This document shows, in pieces, positions 5,072-25,999 of a stretch of DNA of 64,000 nucleotides (position 1 is its first letter; every line of letters starts with the position of its first letter). Location: positions 186,001-250,000 of the forward strand of contig NZ_RJWA01000006.1 in the NCBI RefSeq assembly GCF_003762835.1, given 5' to 3'. The notes under the pieces were generated by a model, which worked only from the letters and a program-made list of their open reading frames with translations, did no database searches and was not told the DNA's origin. The position numbers and the translations under genes were made by a program. The stretch comes from Micromonospora sp. HM5-17. GTDB lineage: Bacteria; Actinomycetota; Actinomycetes; Mycobacteriales; Micromonosporaceae.

Positions 5072-7855
5072 TCACCCCCTCACCAGCGCGCGGTTCAGGT
5101 CCCCGCCGTACCCGGTGACGATCTCCGCCCGCAGGAGCGGCAGCAGCATCCGCACCAGCTCTTGCTGCGCGCCCGGCCCGACCGACAGCCGCACCTCGCG
5201 CACATCGGGGGGCGGCGCGGGCACCGGCAGCGCCGCCACCGGCTGGGTGACCGTCAGCGACCGGGGCACCAGCATGTGTCCGTACCAGCCGGCCGCCGTG
5301 TCCAAAATGGACAGCGACCGAGCCGGGTCGCCGTGCCTCGGCACGAACGCCTCGCCACCGGTGGCCGGCTCCGCGTACGCGTACCGGGCCGGGGCGACCG
5401 GCGAAGCGACGTGCGCCTCACGCAGCACGCCTTCCTGCGCGTGCGTGTACACGCCACCCCACCTATTGGCGTACTGTTTGCGGATCGCGGCGGCGGCCGC
5501 GGCGGCGTTGCTGGCGCCCGTCACCCGCAGGGCGATATTTACCACTTCGTCCGGAATTTTTTTGAGGTAGTCGCGCAGCTCGCGCGCCCTCTGGAGCGCA
5601 GACCGGGTGTCGACGGACACCGTGGTGTCCACCCGCTTCGGGATGTCCCGGTAGGCGCCGATCAGGTCCCGGACCTCGTCCTCGTCGTAGCCGAGCTGCC
5701 GCGCCAGCCTCTCGAGCTGGCCCAGCTGGCTGTCGTACTTCTGGTTAGCCTCCTCGACGGACATGCCCTCGGCGATCCGGGCATCCCGCAAGTTTTTGAT
5801 CGACTCGATCTGGTCGAGGAGGGCCGACCTGTTCTTGCGGCCCTCCTCGCTGTGGACACTGAGGGTCCGGGTGCCCCTGCCCAGCTCCTCCCGCACATCA
5901 GCCAGCCCCTGGTGGTACTGGATGAGGGCGGTATCGGCGTCCATCTGGATGCCGAACAGCTCGTCAAACGCCTCTTTCAACTGCTCGGCGGCCTCGGCGG
6001 CCTGCTCCGCCTCGGCGCCGAGCTGGCCGACCTGGCCGGCGGCGGTCCCGGACGCCGCACCCGCCGTCTCGAGCGCCGCCGCGTACCCGGGCAGCCCCGC
6101 CCGCAGCTCGTCAACGGAGACGCCCTGCTCGCGCGCCTCCTCGGTGAGCTTGGCGAAAATCGCCGCCGCCTGCTCGCCCTGGCCTGACTGGACCAGCTGG
6201 GTGAGCGCCTGGTCGATCGCCTCCAGGCGCTCCCGGGCATGCTGCAACGACTCGTCGGCGACCGACCCGAGCCCGGTCATCGACTCGACCGCGCCGGCGA
6301 TGCCGTTACCCAGGTCAGCCCAGAATCCCGAGTCGAGCGTCCCGAGGTCGTAGGCCAGGTGTTCGAAATCGTCACCCAGCAGCCGGGCCGCCTCGCCTGA
6401 CCGCTCACCGGACGCCGCCCACCGCTGCAACCCCCTGGCCAGGGCGTCGACCTGGGGGTTGAGGGTGTCGCCGACCGTCGCGGAGATCGTCGCCGCCGCC
6501 ACCTGCGCGGCCGCGAACGCCGCCGCGGCCCGGCCCGCCCACCGGGTGGTGAGCTCCAGGCCGCGGGCCGCCCTGGTGCCGGCCGGCCCGGTCGCCCGCA
6601 GCTCCTCCAGCATGTCCGCGGTCGCCCGCCGCGTCCTCACCCATGCGGCGCCGAGCAGCAGCGCACCACCGGTGACCGCGGCGAGGACCGTGACCGTCTG
6701 CCCCATCAGCGGCGGGAGCTGCCCGAACTGGCTGACCAGCGCCTCGGCACCCTGGACCAGGGTACGGAGGCCGGCGTTGGCGCCAGATCCGGACTGGATC
6801 GCCAGGGTCTCCAGCTCGCCGCGCAACCGCTCCAGGTCGCCGACCAGGTTGTCCGTTTTCATCGCGGCGGTCTCCGCCGCGTACCCCTGGTCGTCAACCC
6901 GCGCGATCCACTCGGCGATGCCCCGGGCGCCCTGCTCGTACAGGATGCTCGCCGCCCGGATCGCGTCCGACCCGAAGATTGTGGCCAACGCTGCGTTGCG
7001 CTGCTCCTGGGTGAGCTGGCCGAGCTGCGCCTGCAGCTGGCCGGCCAGGGACACCATGCCGACGAACCGGCCCTGGGCATCGTAGGCCGTGATCCCCAGC
7101 TCCCGCATCAGCTCGGCCGCCTCGTCGGTTGGGGCGGCCAGCATCAGCAGCGCGGTTTTGAGACTGGTGCCGGCGTCGGAGCCGAGCAGACCTGCGCTGG
7201 CGAAAGCGGTGAGGGTGCCGACCGTGTCCTCGACGGACAGGCCCATCTGCGCCGCCACCAGCCCGGCCTGGTTGAGCGCCATCGACATGTCGTGGACGCT
7301 GCCCTGTGCCTTGCCGGCGCCGGCCGCGAGCAGGTCGGCCACGTGGCCGACATCGGACCCCTCCAGGCGAAACTGGGTCAACGCCGACGCGGCCACCTCC
7401 GCCGCCTCGGCCACGTCCATCTGCCCGGCCGCCGCCAGGGCGAGCGCACCGGACAGGCCGCCGCCGAGGATGTCGGCCGTCTCGACGCCCGCCTTGGCCA
7501 GCTCCTCGATCGCCCCGGCCGCCTGGGTCGCCGAGTACGCGGTGTCCCGGCCAGCCTCCACCGCGGCGGACCGCAGCTGCTCCAGCTCGGCACCCGACGC
7601 GTGCGTCGCCGCCTGCACCGACGACATGGCCTTGTCGAACTGCGCAGCGGACGCGATCGCCGCCCCGGCGATGCCGACCAGCGCCAGACCGGCCCGGCCC
7701 GCCTGGTCGGCCACCGCGTCCAGGTGACCCGCCCGGGCCGCCCGGTCCAGCTCGCCGGCGAAGTCGCGGGTTGCCCGGCTCGCCTGCCGGAGACTGGCCA
7801 TGTAGCCGGACACCTCGGCCTGCAGCCGGACCCCGACCGTGCGCAGCGCCACCAC
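5072..7855 (-). CDS. Phage tail tape measure protein
   Basis: 927 residues. The N-terminal half is of the TP901 type (MASLRQASRATRDFAGELDR, QFDKAMSSVQAATHASGAEL, ATIFGSDAIRAASILYEQG). There is a hydrophobic segment around 380-410 (VTVLAAVTGGALLLGAAW), long Ala-rich helical parts, and a C-terminal region with RKQYANRWGG. Tape measure proteins set tail length and travel with the DNA into the cell. The start is GTG at 7855, directly after the TGA of the frameshifted chaperone; a second GTG is the next codon. A gene this long after a frameshifted chaperone pair is the standard siphovirus order. Confidence 0.92.
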   Translation of the reverse strand: MVALRTVGVRLQAEVSGYMASLRQASRATRDFAGELDRAARAGHLDAVADQAGRAGLALVGIAGAAIASAAQFDKAMSSVQAATHASGAELEQLRSAAVEAGRDTAYSATQAAGAIEELAKAGVETADILGGGLSGALALAAAGQMDVAEAAEVAASALTQFRLEGSDVGHVADLLAAGAGKAQGSVHDMSMALNQAGLVAAQMGLSVEDTVGTLTAFASAGLLGSDAGTSLKTALLMLAAPTDEAAELMRELGITAYDAQGRFVGMVSLAGQLQAQLGQLTQEQRNAALATIFGSDAIRAASILYEQGARGIAEWIARVDDQGYAAETAAMKTDNLVGDLERLRGELETLAIQSGSGANAGLRTLVQGAEALVSQFGQLPPLMGQTVTVLAAVTGGALLLGAAWVRTRRATADMLEELRATGPAGTRAARGLELTTRWAGRAAAAFAAAQVAAATISATVGDTLNPQVDALARGLQRWAASGERSGEAARLLGDDFEHLAYDLGTLDSGFWADLGNGIAGAVESMTGLGSVADESLQHARERLEAIDQALTQLVQSGQGEQAAAIFAKLTEEAREQGVSVDELRAGLPGYAAALETAGAASGTAAGQVGQLGAEAEQAAEAAEQLKEAFDELFGIQMDADTALIQYHQGLADVREELGRGTRTLSVHSEEGRKNRSALLDQIESIKNLRDARIAEGMSVEEANQKYDSQLGQLERLARQLGYDEDEVRDLIGAYRDIPKRVDTTVSVDTRSALQRARELRDYLKKIPDEVVNIALRVTGASNAAAAAAAIRKQYANRWGGVYTHAQEGVLREAHVASPVAPARYAYAEPATGGEAFVPRHGDPARSLSILDTAAGWYGHMLVPRSLTVTQPVAALPVPAPPPDVREVRLSVGPGAQQELVRMLLPLLRAEIVTGYGGDLNRALVRG

Positions 7856-18634: not shown

Positions 18635-18793
18635 CTCGTGATCACTCCTCCGCCGCATCGCGCGGCATCGGGCGGCCGTCACATCGCGTGACGACCCGGG
18701 GACTTTGAACCCGGCGGACCGGGCGCGGCCCTCCCCGGCGGTCCTCTGTGCCCCCGCCCGAGGGGGTAGCCCCCCAGGGGTGGTCACGGATAG
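18635..18793. other. Intergenic region between HNH nuclease and TerS; hairpin, possible cos/pac site
   Basis: 159 bases without an ORF I would accept. It holds an inverted repeat GTCAC-ATCGC-GTGAC near 18680 and a C5/G5 hairpin at 18751-18766 (CCCCC-GCCCGA-GGGGG). In HNH-TerS-TerL phages the packaging site often lies here, so these repeats are candidates. Ends cannot be placed without virion DNA. Confidence 0.35.
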
Positions 18794-20170: not shown

Positions 20171-20715
20171 CGGCGACCCCAGGTCCGCTGGTCCCACAAG
20201 CGGCGGACGACGCGCGCCTGCCACGGCAGCAGCGGCAGGCCGATGCGTCGGGCGTAGTCGATGATCACCTCGGCGTCGTGCCGAGGCGTGTCCGCCTCGG
20301 AGCCCTGAGATCCGCTGTGAGCGTCTGGGACCGCCGTGCCCTTGTCCTGACCCTCGCCCGTCCCAGATCGCGCCGCAGCGGCAAGATCCGGGCCGTCGTC
20401 GGGCCGGCGCCAGACGGCGCACATGGTGCCGTCGGCCCGGGGCGGGATGATCGCCCCCTCCGGCCCCGAGAGGGGCATCAGCGGTCGGCCGGGTCGGATG
20501 TCGGCGAGGGGCCGCGGGTCGGGCCGGTGTGCCCAGGAGACGGCCGGTGGCGGGGTGCCCTGCCGTGCCCACCAGGACGGCGTGCCGGGCGCCGTGTCGG
20601 GGTAGGTGGCGTAGCCGGGCCGGGTGAGCGCGATGTCGCGCCAGCGGGCGTCCCGCTCGTCGCCGGTCGGCAGGCGGTCGGCGGTCTGCCGGACCTCGGG
20701 GTCGTGGTCGGTCAT
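20167..20715 (-). CDS. Phage protein of unknown function
   Basis: 182 residues, from MTDHDPEVRQTADRLPTGDE. The region DPRPLADIRPGRPLM and GAIIPPRADGTMCAVWRRP looks folded. The middle is low-complexity (about 110-145). The end IDYARRIGLPLLPWQARVVR resembles the start of the large terminase/helicase fold (P-L-L-P-W-Q), a motif seen at the beginning of TerL proteins. It could be a displaced terminase N-terminal segment or an adaptor. Coupled to its neighbours by ATGA overlaps. Confidence 0.55.
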   Translation of the reverse strand: MTDHDPEVRQTADRLPTGDERDARWRDIALTRPGYATYPDTAPGTPSWWARQGTPPPAVSWAHRPDPRPLADIRPGRPLMPLSGPEGAIIPPRADGTMCAVWRRPDDGPDLAAAARSGTGEGQDKGTAVPDAHSGSQGSEADTPRHDAEVIIDYARRIGLPLLPWQARVVRRLWDQRTWGRR

Positions 20716-20960
20716 CGGGCGGCCTCCTCTCCGGGGGCGGCCTCGACCAGGGCCAGCTCGCAGCCGAGCATCGCGGCCAGCTCGGCGAGGTGGCGCGAGG
20801 AGGGCGAGCGTGTGCCGCCCTCCCACTTGGCGACGGTGGCGGTGGTGACGTCGAGCCGGGCGGCGATCCGCTCCTGGGTGACGCCGCGGACGAGGCGGAG
20901 CATGGTCAGCTCGGCGACGAGCTGGCGGATGGCCGGGTGGGGTGCGCGACTGTCGGTCAT
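20712..20960 (-). CDS. XRE-family helix-turn-helix regulator
   Basis: 82 residues. The HTH is AELTMLRLVRGVTQERIAAR ... DVTTATVAKWEGGTRSPSSR, with the typical Q-E-R-I-A, turn and K-W-E-G-G-x-R-x-P pattern of Cro/C1 proteins. There is no second domain. Its ATG overlaps the stop of the nuclease gene and its stop overlaps the next gene, so it is part of the early operon. It may time the early-to-late switch. Confidence 0.75.
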   Translation of the reverse strand: MTDSRAPHPAIRQLVAELTMLRLVRGVTQERIAARLDVTTATVAKWEGGTRSPSSRHLAELAAMLGCELALVEAAPGEEAAR

Positions 20961-21418
20961 CGGGTGGTCTCCGGGGTGGCGGTGGTGGGGATGGGGTGGG
21001 AGTCCCAGCCGCAGCCGGGGCAGGGGCCGCCGTCGGCGCCGTGCAGCTCGTGGCCGCAGTAACCGGGGTCGTCGTCGAGGGCGTCGAGCCGGAACGGTTC
21101 GCAGGGTTGGATGCGGTGGCCGCGCCGTTTGCGGCCGAGGAGCCGGGTGTAGACGACGCCGCGGCCGTGTGGCCCGTTGACGGCGAGGATTGGGATGGCG
21201 CCGACCCAGCTGGCGACATCGACGAGGCGGTCCCACTCGCCGGGGGGCAGGGTTCCGTCGCGTTTCGCTTGGATGAAGAGTGCCTGGCCTGGTTTGAGGG
21301 CGATCAGGTCGATCTTTGTCTTGCCTTTGCTGCCGGCGGCGCGGACGACTGCGTACCCGTTCTCTTCGAGGTCGTTACGGACCTTCCATTCGAAGCCGCG
21401 GCCCTGCTTGTAGCTCAC
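20957..21418 (-). CDS. Holliday-junction-nuclease-like protein (Hjc/VRR type)
   Basis: 153 residues. Residues 7-60 carry the restriction-nuclease fold pattern: GFEWKVRNDLEENGYAVVRA, then GKTKIDLIALKPGQALFIQA and K. Candidate catalytic residues are E10, D37 and the Q-A-K triad, where the usual acidic residue of E-x-K is Gln. A C-terminal Cys region (CGHELHGADGGPCPGCGW) may bind zinc. Similar proteins in actinophages replace RusA/RuvC for branch resolution before packaging. Activity is inferred. Confidence 0.7.
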   Translation of the reverse strand: MSYKQGRGFEWKVRNDLEENGYAVVRAAGSKGKTKIDLIALKPGQALFIQAKRDGTLPPGEWDRLVDVASWVGAIPILAVNGPHGRGVVYTRLLGRKRRGHRIQPCEPFRLDALDDDPGYCGHELHGADGGPCPGCGWDSHPIPTTATPETTR

Positions 21419-21591
21419 GGCTGCTCCTCTCGGCGGTGGAGGAGGGGGTGGTGTTGGTGTGCGCGGGCGAGCCGGGCGAGGGCGTCGCGTTGGCGGGTGG
21501 CGAGGTTGTCGAGGATGCGGGCGGCGATGTCGCCGACGGGTTCGGGCCCGTCGACGGGTGCCGGGTGGTCGGTGGTCGGGTGGTCGTCCAT
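21415..21591 (-). CDS. 58-residue phage protein of unknown function
   Basis: It begins MDDHPTTDHPAPVDGPEPVG, followed by a predicted helix (DIAARILDNLATRQRDALAR) and a His-rich basic end. The ATG at 21591 has GGGAG upstream, and its stop overlaps the next start (ATGA). It is the first gene downstream of the iteron region. No family recognised; a small DNA-binding or adaptor protein is possible. Confidence 0.55.
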   Translation of the reverse strand: MDDHPTTDHPAPVDGPEPVGDIAARILDNLATRQRDALARLARAHQHHPLLHRREEQP

Positions 21592-21637
21592 GGTGTCTCC
21601 CGGGGTGGTGTGGATCTTGGGTTTGGGTGCTTGTCCG

Positions 21638-21661
21638 CCCCCTCCCCTAAAGGGGAGGGGG
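21638..21661. terminator. GC-rich hairpin bordering the iteron region
   Basis: CCCCCTCCCC and GGGGAGGGGG form a perfect stem with a TAAA loop. It lies just outside the repeat array and 47 bases before the ATG of the 58-residue gene on the minus strand. No T-tract follows. It may end transcripts from the RepA-like gene or form part of the origin. Confidence 0.5.
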
Positions 21662-21663
21662 GG

Positions 21664-21863
21664 CGTGACTTTGTGCCGTGACTTTCCGCGTGACTTTCTG
21701 ACCTGCGGAAACGCGGTAAAGTCACGGTCGCTGGAGATCAACGTGACTTTCTGCGTGACTTTCTGCGTGACTTTCTGAGAACCGGCTCTGACCTGCGGAA
21801 ACGCTTGATCGTCGGCCGTAAAGTCACGCCGAGGCATCGAAGCGTGACTTTCTCCGTGACTTT
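21664..21863. repeat. Iteron-like array of CGTGACTTT, candidate phage replication origin
   Basis: CGTGACTTT occurs eight times in direct orientation (21664, 21677, 21689, 21742, 21754, 21766, 21843, 21855) and twice inverted (AAAGTCACG at 21718 and 21820). Three copies are perfect 12-base tandem units (CGTGACTTTCTG, 21742-21777). CTGACCTGCGGAAACGC is also duplicated (21698, 21788), each copy before an inverted iteron. The region lies directly downstream of the RepA-like ATPase gene and holds no convincing gene (21592-21893). Iterons beside a replication ATPase suggest an origin; an operator cluster is the alternative. Confidence 0.65.
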
Positions 21864-21893
21864 CTTGGGAGCGTTCCCACGCCGTGGTTGGGC

Positions 21894-23159
21894 TCACCGG
21901 TCCGGCTCCTCCCACGACGCCGGAGCGGCCGGGAACCACCGCCTGCCGTGGCCGCGCCCGCCGCGCTCCGTGTCCGGGTCGCGGGCGTACAGCAGGCCCT
22001 GCGCCACGAGCGCGTCGAGCCGCCGGCGGGCCTTCTCGATCTGGGCTTTCGTCGGCTTCTCCACCGAGTACAGGCAAGCCGCCGCCTCGTTCGCCGATAG
22101 GCCGGTCGTGGAGCAGCGGCGGGCCAGCGCCACCACGTCGGTGTCCGGGTCGTGGAACACCTCGGCCAGGCCCGTCTCCCGGTTGTGGCGGATCTTCAGC
22201 GGGCCAACCTCGTTCATCGGCTGCTTGAGGTGCAGCAGTTCGACGATCGGGTCGCCGGGTTCGCCCCACAGCAGCACCACCGACCCGGCACCGGAGGTCA
22301 ACCAGGTCGACCCGTAGATGCCGTTGATGTTGTTCGGCTTGCCGCCGTCCGCCCCGTTCTTCACCACGTGGTGCAGCTCAACGAGTTGGATGCCTTCGGC
22401 GAGGGCGAGCTGCCGGGCCCGGTTGTAGCCGGCGCCGACTTCGTCCTTGGCCAGGCCGACGGCGGCGTCTTTGAGGCTGTCGACGAACACGACGTCGGCG
22501 TCGTGTTCGCGGGCCAGCCGGAGCAGGCCCTCCGGGTCGGCGGCGAGGTCGCACGGCGGCGGGCCCACCCAGAACCGGATGATCTCGGACAGGTACTGGC
22601 GGCCGAACTCAGCCTCGGCGTCGGTGAACATCCTGGCCAGGTTGCGGCGGGCCTGCTCGGGTCGGTCCATGGCCAGGTACAGCACCCGCTGCTGGCACGG
22701 TTCGACCGGGTAGCCGAGCACGTCGCCGGGGGGCAGGCCGGCGACTGCGCGGAGCAGCTGCCCGGCGAGGGTTGTCTTGCCGACGCCCTGCGGGCCGGCG
22801 ATCATCAGTGCCTCGCCGCGTGCCCACAGGATGTCTGCGCCTGTGCCCCACAGGGCGGGCGGGGTCGGTGGTAGGTCGAGCAGGAAGGTGGCGCCGTCGT
22901 GGACGCGGGCCGCGTCCGCGGCCCGGGCCTTGGCCTCTGCCGCCTGCTCTTCGGCGAAGATCTGTTCGGCGGCGTGGCGGGCGCGCAGGAGGGTGAGCTG
23001 CCGTTCGGTTTCCTCGGCCTGCCGTTGCCGTTGGCGGGCGGCCAGCACCTCGGCGCGCAGTTGCTCCTCCTGCCGCTGCCACGCCTCGTGTTCGTCGGGG
23101 CTGAACGGGTCTTCAGGCGGCGCCACGCTCATGCCTTCCCACAGGTCGATGTCGGTCAC
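21894..23159 (-). CDS. RepA-like replicative ATPase/helicase (AAA_25 type)
   Basis: 421 residues from GTG 23159, overlapping the previous TGA. A charged coiled-coil N-terminus (about 25-95) is followed by a RecA-like ATPase: Walker A AGPQGVGKTTLAGQLL, Walker B-like ADVVFVDSLKDAAVG, then LVELHHVVKNGA and NNINGIYGSTWLTSGAGSVV, typical of plasmid RepA-type helicases. The C-terminal LSANEAAACLYSVEKPTKAQ helix region looks like a winged helix. It probably loads or unwinds at the iteron region immediately downstream. No primase domain is seen. Confidence 0.82.
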   Translation of the reverse strand: MTDIDLWEGMSVAPPEDPFSPDEHEAWQRQEEQLRAEVLAARQRQRQAEETERQLTLLRARHAAEQIFAEEQAAEAKARAADAARVHDGATFLLDLPPTPPALWGTGADILWARGEALMIAGPQGVGKTTLAGQLLRAVAGLPPGDVLGYPVEPCQQRVLYLAMDRPEQARRNLARMFTDAEAEFGRQYLSEIIRFWVGPPPCDLAADPEGLLRLAREHDADVVFVDSLKDAAVGLAKDEVGAGYNRARQLALAEGIQLVELHHVVKNGADGGKPNNINGIYGSTWLTSGAGSVVLLWGEPGDPIVELLHLKQPMNEVGPLKIRHNRETGLAEVFHDPDTDVVALARRCSTTGLSANEAAACLYSVEKPTKAQIEKARRRLDALVAQGLLYARDPDTERGGRGHGRRWFPAAPASWEEPDR

Positions 23160-23593: not shown

Positions 23594-24103
23594 TCAGAAC
23601 GGAGGCTCGTCGTCGTCTCGCGACGCCGTCCTCGGAAAGCCGGCGTCGGCGGTCCGCGTCCGGCCGGGCGTGGCCGGGGCGGGGGTGGCGGTCGCCCACG
23701 GGTCGTCGGCTGGGCCGGTGGCCGGTGCGGCGCCGGGGCCGGAGCGGGTCATCTTCTGGACCTGGGCGGTGGCGTACCGGAGGCTGGGGCCGATGGAGTC
23801 GATGACGAGTTCGATGCGGCTGCGCTTCTCGCCCTCGCGGGTTTCGTAGCTGTTGGTCTTGAGTCGACCGGTGATGACGACCTCGTCGCCGCGGCGCAGG
23901 CTTTCGGCGACGTTCTCGGCCTCCTGGCGGAACAGGGTGCCGTCGAGGAAGCACACGTCGCCGTCGACCCATTCGCCGTTGGCGTCGCGCTTGCGCTGGT
24001 TGAAGGCGATCCGCAGCCGGCAGATGGCGGTTCCGGTGGCGGCGAACCGCAGCTCGGGGTCGTCGGTGAGGCGACCGACGCCGTGGATGGTGGGCAGGCT
24101 CAT
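23594..24103 (-). CDS. ssb: Single-stranded DNA-binding protein
   Basis: 169 residues. An OB-fold N-terminus (GVGRLTDDPELRFAATGTAI, CRLRIAFNQRKRD, CFLDGTLFRQEAENVAESLR, GDEVVITGRLKTNSYETREG) is followed by a disordered Pro/Ala-rich linker and the acidic tip SRDDDEPPF. The D-D-D-E-P-P-F tail is the canonical partner-binding end of bacterial SSB. It should coat the recombination and replication intermediates of the adjacent annealing and nuclease genes. The ATG overlaps the preceding stop. Confidence 0.92.
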   Translation of the reverse strand: MSLPTIHGVGRLTDDPELRFAATGTAICRLRIAFNQRKRDANGEWVDGDVCFLDGTLFRQEAENVAESLRRGDEVVITGRLKTNSYETREGEKRSRIELVIDSIGPSLRYATAQVQKMTRSGPGAAPATGPADDPWATATPAPATPGRTRTADAGFPRTASRDDDEPPF

Positions 24104-24921
24104 GCGACACGCTCCCCGCTGGCAGCGGTGATCTCGGCGACGGTCACCGGGTCGGGCGGGAACGCCTCGTCGCGGCTGATCTCCTTCCGCTTGAGCGACT
24201 GGAACAGCACGCCGAGTTCGGCGACGTCCTCGGCCGTCCACTCGGCCCGCGGCCGACCGACCTTCCTCTCCAGCTGTTCGAGGGTGATGCCGCCGCGAGC
24301 GAACTGGTCGATCGCGCTCTGGACGCGCTGGGCGAGCTGTTCGCCGGTGACAACGGTCAGCGTGCGCCGGCAGATCTCCTCGGCCTCGTCGGTGAACCAC
24401 TTCGGCAGGACCGAGTAGATGGCCTGCCGTACCCGCCGGGCGCCCTGGTTGGCGTTGTTTTCGTAGATGTCGCGCAGGTCGACGAGCCGTTCCGCACCGC
24501 CGCGCTTGTCCCGCCGGTGGGGCACGATGAAGATCTGCGCCGAGCGGGTGTTCGTTTCGACGTCCCAGGCAAACGCTTGCATCTCGCTGATGCCGGCGGC
24601 GTCGTCGCGGCGCAGCTCGGCGACCCCGTACTGGATGTTGCCCCAGCACAGGGCGAGCTCGCGGGCCAGGTAGACGGACGGGCCGGTGACGGTCTGCCCG
24701 GAGCGGGGGAAGGCGTAGAAGGCCTGCCCGGCGAGTCCGGGCTGGCTGCAGGCGCGGCGCATGCGGGCAACCGCCTGGTCAATGTCACGCGGGCACTGCT
24801 GGGCGACTTGGACGGCGGCGGCTACCTCGGCGACCGCCCGGGACTGTTCGATGACGGTGGCTTGTCCGAGGATCTCCGGGGTGGGGACTGCCGGGTTGGT
24901 GATGCGATCGAGGGCGGTCAC
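24100..24921 (-). CDS. RecT-like single-strand annealing protein candidate
   Basis: 273 residues from GTG 24921 (GTGA overlap). It contains the helical ATVIEQSRAVAEVAAAVQVA, RDIDQAVARMRRACSQPGLA, GQAFYAFPRSGQTVTGPSVY and LARELALCWGNIQYGVAELR, then EMQAFAWDVETNTRSAQIFI. That strand-helix pattern and the position between a RecE-like nuclease and SSB fit a phage annealing protein. The family match is not certain by eye; it may be a distant RecT/Sak group or an unnamed actinophage family. Confidence 0.65.
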   Translation of the reverse strand: MTALDRITNPAVPTPEILGQATVIEQSRAVAEVAAAVQVAQQCPRDIDQAVARMRRACSQPGLAGQAFYAFPRSGQTVTGPSVYLARELALCWGNIQYGVAELRRDDAAGISEMQAFAWDVETNTRSAQIFIVPHRRDKRGGAERLVDLRDIYENNANQGARRVRQAIYSVLPKWFTDEAEEICRRTLTVVTGEQLAQRVQSAIDQFARGGITLEQLERKVGRPRAEWTAEDVAELGVLFQSLKRKEISRDEAFPPDPVTVAEITAASGERVA

Positions 24922-25772
24922 CAGACCTCCTTGGTGTGTTGGTTCTCTGCCCAGGCGGGCAGCGGGATCAGGGGGATGTCGTCGCCGTAGCCGGGCCACA
25001 CGCCGGTCCGGACGCATTCGGCGTAGATGCCGATCGCTTCGCGGTTGCGTGCCTGTCCGATCCGCTCGGCAACCGGGTCGAGCTGGACGACTCGGATCAG
25101 GTGTGGCGGGTCTTTCTCGACGAAGACGAAGACGAACCGCGCGTCGATGCCGAGGACGCTGGCGCCGTCGAGGTACCAGGCGGCCTGCTGGTGGTAGCCG
25201 TGGGTGTGGATGGCCCGCTGCAGGTTCGCCAGGTCGGCGCTGACGCAGGTCTTGAGGTCGACGATGATGGGCCGGCCGTCGGTCTGGTCGCGCAGCCAGT
25301 CGTATCGGGCTCGCAGCCAGACGCCGGTGTCTGCGTCGATCCACGCGGCGGTCACCTCGGGCCGGCCGGTGGACGGGTCGAGCAGTGCGCCGGCGAGCGG
25401 GTGTTGACGCAGGGCGCTGACCATGGCGCGGGCCCGGTCGTAGTCGGCGGCGAGTACTGGTGTCCGGCCGGCCGCCCACGCCTCGTCGCGCTGCTCGCGG
25501 GCAGTCCTGGTGCGCCAGTCGGGGGCGTCGATGACGGTGATGTCTGCGCCGGCGCCGAGGGCGAGCCGGTGCACGGTCTTGCCGAGGTCGAACTCGGGCC
25601 GGCTGGTGGGCGTCGGGTGGTCGAGCTGCCACCGGTACTTCGCCGGGCAGGACGGTGGCAGGAGGAGACGTGCTCCGGTGCTGGACAGCGAACCGCCGGG
25701 GATCGGGTCGGCGTGGTAGTCGGCATCGGGGATGCCGTCGTACAGGCCGGGCCGGGTGATCGTGGTGGTCAT
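24918..25772 (-). CDS. RecE/Cas4-like PD-(D/E)XK exonuclease
   Basis: 284 residues from ATG 25772. N-terminal YDGIPDADYHADPIPGGSLS and LLPPSCPAKYRWQLDHPTP, then DLGKTVHRLALGAGA with H68. The nuclease core has TGVWLRARYDWLRD and RPIIVDLKTCVSADLANLQR, with D172 and K174 of the D-x-K motif, and YHQQAAWYLDG. This matches RecE/YqaJ-like phage exonucleases that make 3' overhangs for the annealing protein encoded next. The acidic residues suggest an active enzyme. Confidence 0.82.
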   Translation of the reverse strand: MTTTITRPGLYDGIPDADYHADPIPGGSLSSTGARLLLPPSCPAKYRWQLDHPTPTSRPEFDLGKTVHRLALGAGADITVIDAPDWRTRTAREQRDEAWAAGRTPVLAADYDRARAMVSALRQHPLAGALLDPSTGRPEVTAAWIDADTGVWLRARYDWLRDQTDGRPIIVDLKTCVSADLANLQRAIHTHGYHQQAAWYLDGASVLGIDARFVFVFVEKDPPHLIRVVQLDPVAERIGQARNREAIGIYAECVRTGVWPGYGDDIPLIPLPAWAENQHTKEVW

Positions 25773-25999
25773 GCTGTCCTCTGCCGTGGTCGCTGTCGGT
25801 TGTGGAGTGGGATGACGGGGGCGAGGTCGTCGCAGCCGGGGTGTCGGTCGTGTCCGCCGGCTGCGGCGGCGGGGTCGAGGGGCCATCCGCAGCCGGCGGC
25901 GCAGGCTGGCCAGCCGTTGGCGGCGCGGACGGCGGCGGCTGGGCTGGCCCAGCGGGAGCCGGCTACCCCAGCCGGCTCCCGCCTGCTGTTGTTGGTCAT
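25769..25999 (-). CDS. Small Cys/His-containing phage protein
   Basis: 76 residues with C33, C37 and C56, plus His at the HDRHPGCDD motif, so a zinc site is possible. It starts MTNNSRREPAGVAGSRWASP. Both ends overlap neighbouring genes by four bases (ATGA). No family recognised. Confidence 0.5.
   Translation of the reverse strand: MTNNSRREPAGVAGSRWASPAAAVRAANGWPACAAGCGWPLDPAAAAGGHDRHPGCDDLAPVIPLHNRQRPRQRTA

Follow-up and report, generated by a model that had tools for sequence, protein, structure and literature searches.

The DNA under study is a 64-kb stretch (hereafter the window) that carries a prophage, whose genes include those for portal, terminase, head, and integrase proteins; the repeat array at issue belongs to this prophage. 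Its early operon runs along the − strand and comprises, in order, an exonuclease VIII-like gene, a PHROG 3657 gene, a single-strand binding protein gene, a gene for a small protein, the gene for a RepA-like ATPase, the array, a 58-residue gene, and a Holliday-junction-resolvase-like gene. The exonuclease VIII-like gene, the PHROG 3657 gene (unknown function), and the single-strand binding protein gene stand together at 23594-25886, upstream of the helicase, and likely form a recombination cassette. The ATPase gene (21894-23159, − strand; 421 amino acids) matches Pfam AAA_25 (E 1e-18) and a PHROG DNA helicase family (PHROG 6012; E 7e-137); a PDB sequence search at E up to 1 returned no RepA, and replicative DnaB helicases only at E 0.18-0.27. 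Pfam matches to Toprim, Prim-Pol, or DnaB_N were absent from this protein, so a host primase would be needed, and neither D5 nor DUF927 was matched among the proteins scanned. No known initiator was recognisable in the window phage. Downstream of the array lie the 58-residue gene (21415-21591, − strand; PHROG 22627, unknown function) and, by inspection, a helix-turn-helix-like gene at 20712-20961 that has no Pfam match at E 1e-3.

The array occupies 21664-21863 and starts 30 bp past the ATPase stop codon on the − strand, i.e., directly after the RepA-like ATPase gene, where the earlier note had put it. The ten repeat copies that the note had counted in 200 bp, eight direct and two inverted, were all found: CGTGACTTT occurs eight times on the + strand and twice on the − strand within the array and nowhere else in the 64 kb; shuffled sequence yields 0.11 copies on average and 2 at most. 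Read on the − strand, this candidate origin consists of ten copies of AAAGTCACG, eight in the sense direction of the ATPase and two inverted. Three perfect 12-bp tandem units, also reported earlier, start at 21742, 21754, and 21766. The second duplicated element, given as 17 bases in the earlier note, is an exact duplicate of 18 bp (TCTGACCTGCGGAAACGC, at 21697-21714 and 21787-21804); its two occurrences make up two copies of a box on the − strand, copy 1 (GCGTTTCCGCAGGTCAGA) at 21787-21804 and copy 2, 90 bp from it, at 21697-21714. The hairpin said to border the array is at 21633-21669 on the − strand, distal to the ATPase gene; it is GC-rich with the loop TTTA, overlaps the last iteron, and has a DNA fold z of −3.59. 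The description of the array as gene-free was only partly borne out. A long frame on the − strand is uninterrupted across the array, with a possible entry at a GTG overlapping the ATPase stop codon, but the sense copies are spread over the three frames (4, 2, and 2 of the eight), so the repeat is a DNA element and not a protein repeat. In Rfam, positions 21000-22400 gave only a 21-bit match against a threshold of 71 bits, short of the gathering score.

Across relatives, the array goes with the ATPase gene. An array lies directly behind the helicase gene or domain in 46 of 61 nonredundant ATPase loci, the window included (nonredundant meaning <90% identity, with duplicates of 90% or more dropped); 36 of these arrays were called by script and 10 by inspection. 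The check on related prophages proposed in the earlier note showed that the nearest relatives have an array of this kind at the corresponding position. Distant ATPases were gathered from viral contigs, named genomes (7 loci), and genome samples at four ranks, in which the ATPase was present in 6 of 394 genomes (class), 9 of 354 (family), 8 of 397 (order), and 5 of 396 (phylum), each count including the window's own genome. Because these loci were found via the ATPase, its presence is given by design, and the informative part is the co-occurrence of other genes. Each of the other eight window genes tested was found with just 0 to 3 of 36 arrays, a range to be read with the ∼1.5 kb flanks of the genome-sample loci, which limit the exclusion of genes upstream of the ATPase or farther away. 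The 58-residue protein accompanies 2 of the 36 arrays of relatives at E 1e-3, with a third (L006/L025) recognised by eye.

Searches with DNA patterns led back to the same gene. A pattern of two adjacent iterons identified nine viral contigs, all nine of which (among 11 loci) have the ATPase by protein search. A box-type pattern, independent of any protein, matched at least 120 stretches, and 119 were checked; among these 119 listed matches, only L114, L091, and L174 have at least nine iteron cores nearby. A match to the ATPase profile was obtained for L114 and L174, and the start of L091 looks on inspection like the tail of an ATPase. Six cores were found in two of the listed matches, namely L122, a cut-off edge of the L044 array, and L124, apparently a chance match. 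The exact iteron pattern, sought in 300 genomes of the host family, was found only in the window's own genome; the iteron varies too much to be traced by such a search.

Other placements were also seen. The array of L057 is 3.2 kb downstream of the helicase gene, and that of L208 is on the other side of the helicase. In both L208 and L245, an inverted array with the iteron core ATCACG and a strong hairpin lies ∼1.85 kb from the end of the helicase domain, on its 5' side, a rearranged arrangement. In L043, L062, and L072 the array is inside an open 3' extension of the helicase frame, which recalls origins located within initiator genes. No array was seen in the DNA examined for 13 of the 61 loci, among them four mycobacteriophages and the viral contig L239.

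The loci share a common plan of iterons, a CGCAGGTCAG box, and a distal hairpin, and the iterons themselves are very different. Arrays mostly hold 5-13 exact iteron cores, with variants including AAAGTCACG, AAACTCACG, GCTTCACGC, CCCTCACGC, GCAATCACG, GCAGTCACG, GGTGCACGC, GGTGGACGC, AAGTTACG, CACCCACG, CCAACG, and others. On the ATPase tree the iteron triplet changes 23 times by parsimony as compared to 24.8 times in shuffles; with changes near the level of random labels, shared ancestry explains little of the iteron pattern. The box (C[AT]G[GC]TCA, sense strand) is present in 28 of 37 arrays, the window included, versus 271 of 1774 background windows, and within arrays it often takes the form of an A/T-rich triplet followed by CCGCAGGTCA. 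In two-box loci the spacing is 80-82 bp (six loci), 90 bp (the window), or 103 bp (L198). In 32 of 37 loci, a hairpin near the last iteron is among the most stable 2% locally, and a distal hairpin is also present by eye in L028, L041, L042, and L202. The last box and the hairpin centre are a median of 69.5 bp apart (quartiles 67-71; 27 loci), in a search for hairpins 35-100 bp from the box that bounds this distance by design. L239 has a CAGCTCA box and a hairpin behind its helicase without clear iterons, and a nicotinate phosphoribosyltransferase-family gene (L239:1562-3076) directly upstream of the helicase relative.

The C-terminal helix is the segment of the helicase that best tracks the iteron overall, though not in every subset. 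Pairwise iteron distance was compared to the distance in each nine-residue segment of the ATPase, with the rest of the protein controlled for, in 37 nonredundant loci whose iterons have the form NNN-ACG (11 distinct triplets). Left out were L201, because of its ambiguous register, ten loci whose iterons are weak, mixed, or not of the ACG form (L033, L060, L075, L200, L203, L210, L213, L234, L244, and L251), and the 13 loci in which no array was seen (37 + 1 + 10 + 13 = 61). The best of 314 segments was AQIEKARRR, with a partial rho of 0.53 (best elsewhere, 0.36), and the top eight segments all overlap the presumed C-terminal recognition helix, the codons of which (TKAQIEKARR, residues 370-379) are at 22023-22052 on the − strand. 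None of 2000 Mantel permutations reached the helix value. The helix hypothesis was written before 14 of the loci were found, and the segment scan was devised after those 14 had been looked at. In these 14 held-out loci the helix ranks first (0.60; best elsewhere, 0.50), and it is still first among pairs of at most 60, 50, or 45% identity. In pairs of at most 50% identity, the share of helix residues in common is 0.58 when the iteron is the same (54 pairs) versus 0.50 otherwise (406 pairs), an excess reached by 12 of 5000 permutations. In the 23 earlier loci that gave rise to the hypothesis, the helix is eighth (0.47) and residues 80-91 of the domain do better (0.61).

The C-terminal domain of the helicase is probably a winged helix, as suggested by sub-threshold Pfam matches to MarR_2 and HTH_IclR in L075 and to HTH_IclR, HTH_20, and EutK_C in other loci. 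The earlier note had offered either the ATPase or the 58-residue neighbor as the iteron binder; the former is favoured, as its presumed recognition helix best tracks the iteron over the whole set of loci and the neighbor is not a constant partner of the arrays. Rules relating residues to bases gave p values of 2e-4 (basic x1 with a purine), 1e-5 (x3 Lys with G), and 0.02 (Glu with C) in all 37 loci, but the corresponding values in the 14 held-out loci alone (0.59, 0.14, and 1) were not significant. We thus rejected these rules as a recognition code and regard them as only a tendency. By mutual information of residue classes, a helix column is first for iteron base p0 and not for p1 or p2.

Partners of the helicase in other loci are those that replicative helicases would be expected to have. 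Of 33 loci scanned (in the helicase frame or an adjacent gene), 21 have Toprim, Prim-Pol, or DnaB_N fused to the helicase or next to it. Toprim is fused in L027, L041, L042, and L213 and encoded by an adjacent gene in L029, L030, L031, and L035; Prim-Pol is fused in L060, L201, L234, and L244 and adjacent in L200, L202, and L212; and DnaB_N is fused in L054, L055, L114, L198, L210, and L211. The Pfam cut-offs are exceeded by every DnaB_N and Prim-Pol match and, for adjacent Toprim, by those of L029, L030, and L035, but not by the four fused Toprim matches or the adjacent one of L031. The box occurs with Toprim-, Prim-Pol-, and DnaB_N-linked helicases alike (e.g., L029, L060, and L055), which suggests that it is not tied to any single primase.

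The best reading of the array is still the one proposed in the earlier note, a candidate replication origin beside a RepA-like ATPase, and it is supported by the tie between array and ATPase across the loci. We consider it likely that the array is the replication origin of the prophage, or the core of it, and that its reader is the helicase whose gene immediately precedes it. The helicase would bind the iterons in several copies via the C-terminal, probably winged-helix, domain, and this binding would concentrate the RecA-type helicase and load its ring onto the adjoining DNA. We infer such self-loading, and the ensuing replication, from the comparisons above; the box and the distal hairpin would probably serve in strand opening, as a host-factor site, or in priming. 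Many relatives have a Toprim or Prim-Pol primase fused to the helicase or next to it, or else a DnaB-type N-terminal domain that may recruit the host primase. We also lean, if only by a little, towards a broader interpretation, in which phages and plasmids of actinobacteria would share a widespread type of replicon based on a DnaB/RepA-type RecA-fold helicase with its own origin-recognition domain, helix and iteron having been switched together repeatedly on a constant scaffold of box and hairpin.

GC skew, which the earlier note had listed as a check, gave no support for an origin at the array. The skew does not turn there: the cumulative minimum of the window is at 18,759, the border of the early and late genes. 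Among relatives (the 25 of 36 with at least 1.2 kb of sequence on both sides), the shift across the array is inconsistent, being positive in 14 of 25 with a mean of −0.0004. GC skew was consequently rejected as a supporting origin marker. The minimum falls at the early/late border although both gene sets are on the same strand.

Of the alternatives, the one that fares best is that the repeats are read by another host or phage protein, the helicase being a mere neighbor and the helix correlation incidental. The better performance of another ATPase segment in the 23 earlier loci would fit this, as would the constancy of the box while the iteron varies, since the box may be a host-factor site. 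We nevertheless think it unlikely, because the helix is first overall and also when only the held-out loci or only distant pairs are considered; iterons switch among related phages more often than a host protein would be expected to follow; and each of the eight other window genes tested is found with at most 3 of 36 arrays, in loci with upstream flanks that are often short.

The array might instead be an operator or control region, with a regulator on the repeats governing the early operon and the hairpin acting as a terminator or attenuator. It does lie within an operon on one strand, its hairpin has a terminator-like shape, a helix-turn-helix-like gene is nearby, and the helicase could regulate itself. 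However, the array is behind the helicase gene and not before a promoter; a scan of 21400-22100 limited to sigma-70 promoter-like and T-tailed terminator-like sites found neither; the nearby helix-turn-helix-like protein accompanies 0 of 36 arrays; and the genes downstream vary between lineages. A role in control is thus quite improbable. Still less credible is a partition site (i.e., a parS-like centromere), even though the mycobacterial phage parS consists of clustered direct 8-bp repeats and is found directly behind repA in two phages (PMC7157519): no ParA or ParB match was obtained among the window genes scanned (a part of the window's genes), a prophage with an integrase does not require segregation, and the iterons track the helicase helix. 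Finally, it is very unlikely that the repeats are the coding repeat of a gene running from the ATPase stop codon through the array into the 58-residue frame, since the open frame with its overlapping GTG, which in L006 and L012 continues into a similar small protein, is confronted with copies in all three frames and both orientations, the absence of such a downstream gene from most relatives (present in 2 of 36 at E 1e-3), and a repeat sequence that changes while box and hairpin persist.

The preferred reading, an origin recognised by its own helicase, has parallels. Helicases of the SaPI Rep and SCCmec Cch2 kind are SF3/MCM-like, and that of P4 alpha is of the SF3 type. By analogy, the best explanation is that the present module works like this group of proteins but with a helicase of the AAA_25/RepA/DnaB kind. 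In SaPI Rep and SCCmec Cch2, according to PMC7581432 (citing Ubeda et al. 2007), the C-terminal domain recognises iterons directly downstream of its own gene, and the helicases have DUF927 or D5/Primase_Cterm domains. Similarly, short iterons follow the helicase gene directly in our loci, and relatives have a primase fused to the helicase or close by; the C-terminal domain may be the iteron reader here as well, in view of a co-variation that peaks at its helix over all loci, though not in every subset. They differ in having AAA_25 rather than D5 or DUF927, with DnaB_N in some relatives, in coming from actinobacterial hosts (those sampled here), and in the constant box and hairpin beside the iterons. 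P4 alpha combines a Toprim primase, a helicase, and a winged-helix binder of origin repeats in one polypeptide (PMC4234260). L041, L042, L027, and L213 likewise join a sub-threshold Toprim match and AAA_25 in one open frame; the helicase here is unlike P4 alpha in being of the AAA_25 type, and the window protein lacks a primase domain. RSF1010 has a RepA helicase, a separate iteron binder (RepC), and the RepB' primase with ssi stem-loops (PMC4234260 and PMC8965321). Iterons and a stem-loop by the candidate origin are shared with it, and the helicase may be RepA-like as well, but no constant RepC-like partner is present among the eight window genes tested, and iteron binding appears to reside in the helicase itself. 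In the archaeal plasmid pRN1, the origin is directly downstream of the replication gene, the gene product ends in a winged helix, and a stem-loop is required, features that resemble the candidate origin, the probable C-terminal winged helix, and the stem-loop described here; pRN1 has an SF3 helicase, a Prim-Pol domain, and no iterons (PMC4234260), in contrast to the iterons here. Actinobacterial prophage replication functions with repeats near repA are also found in the parABS/RepA prophages of mycobacteriophages. Their RepA is a plasmid-type initiator of 320-350 residues with an N-terminal HTH, and the authors of PMC7157519 detected no repeated sequence motifs where the origins of their RepA phages would be expected; in Miko and Rachaly, the repeats beside repA are parS.

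Among the open-access papers listed by our searches, we found no description of this helicase-array module and no paper on the origin of corynephage BFK20. RecA-type replicative helicases usually need separate initiators and loaders. If our interpretation is true, such helicases have evolved direct origin recognition, as SaPI-type initiators did; on the broader interpretation, a class of RecA-fold helicases would need no separate initiator and perhaps no loader. The candidate origin is narrowed to 200-270 bp, with the helicase as its predicted reader. The many natural pairs of helix and iteron would then supply actinomycete genetics with a recognition code and with replicons that are potentially compatible; were the broader interpretation correct, the code would be readable and many origins would be mutually compatible.

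Plasmids and other phages extend the comparison. No close relative of the window helicase was found on plasmids, and a Toprim-helicase query identified distant plasmid proteins in 62 records, of which four were looked at and two were analysed for box position. One of these (CP108844.1, L260; a 21.6-kb circular plasmid) has a box (AACCGCAGGTCA) at 6077, within a repeat-rich stretch ∼13 kb from its Toprim-AAA_25 gene, and thus does not support the layout with the box behind the gene. The other (NZ_CP058979.1), a circular plasmid of 22 kb from Streptomyces, has two boxes of opposite orientation behind its Toprim-AAA_25 gene; the protein is above the Pfam cut-offs and similar at its C-terminus, and the iterons are less regular. 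Its being recorded as an extrachromosomal replicon fits an origin, although it has an integrase gene as well. Phage records with the helicase number 27, all of mycobacteriophages, and the four examined (Gaia, LittleE, Schatzie, and WXIN; L036-L039) have no array. Their helicases have a different helix, e.g., KKKAERQ or KKKAERR. Gordonia phage Reyja, which has a Prim-Pol match, showed only short CCTGGAA repeats. The most distant helicase with an array, that of L075 (37% identity to the L029 query), is followed by GAGAATCAC/T repeats and a hairpin, and the module may thus reach further than was sampled.
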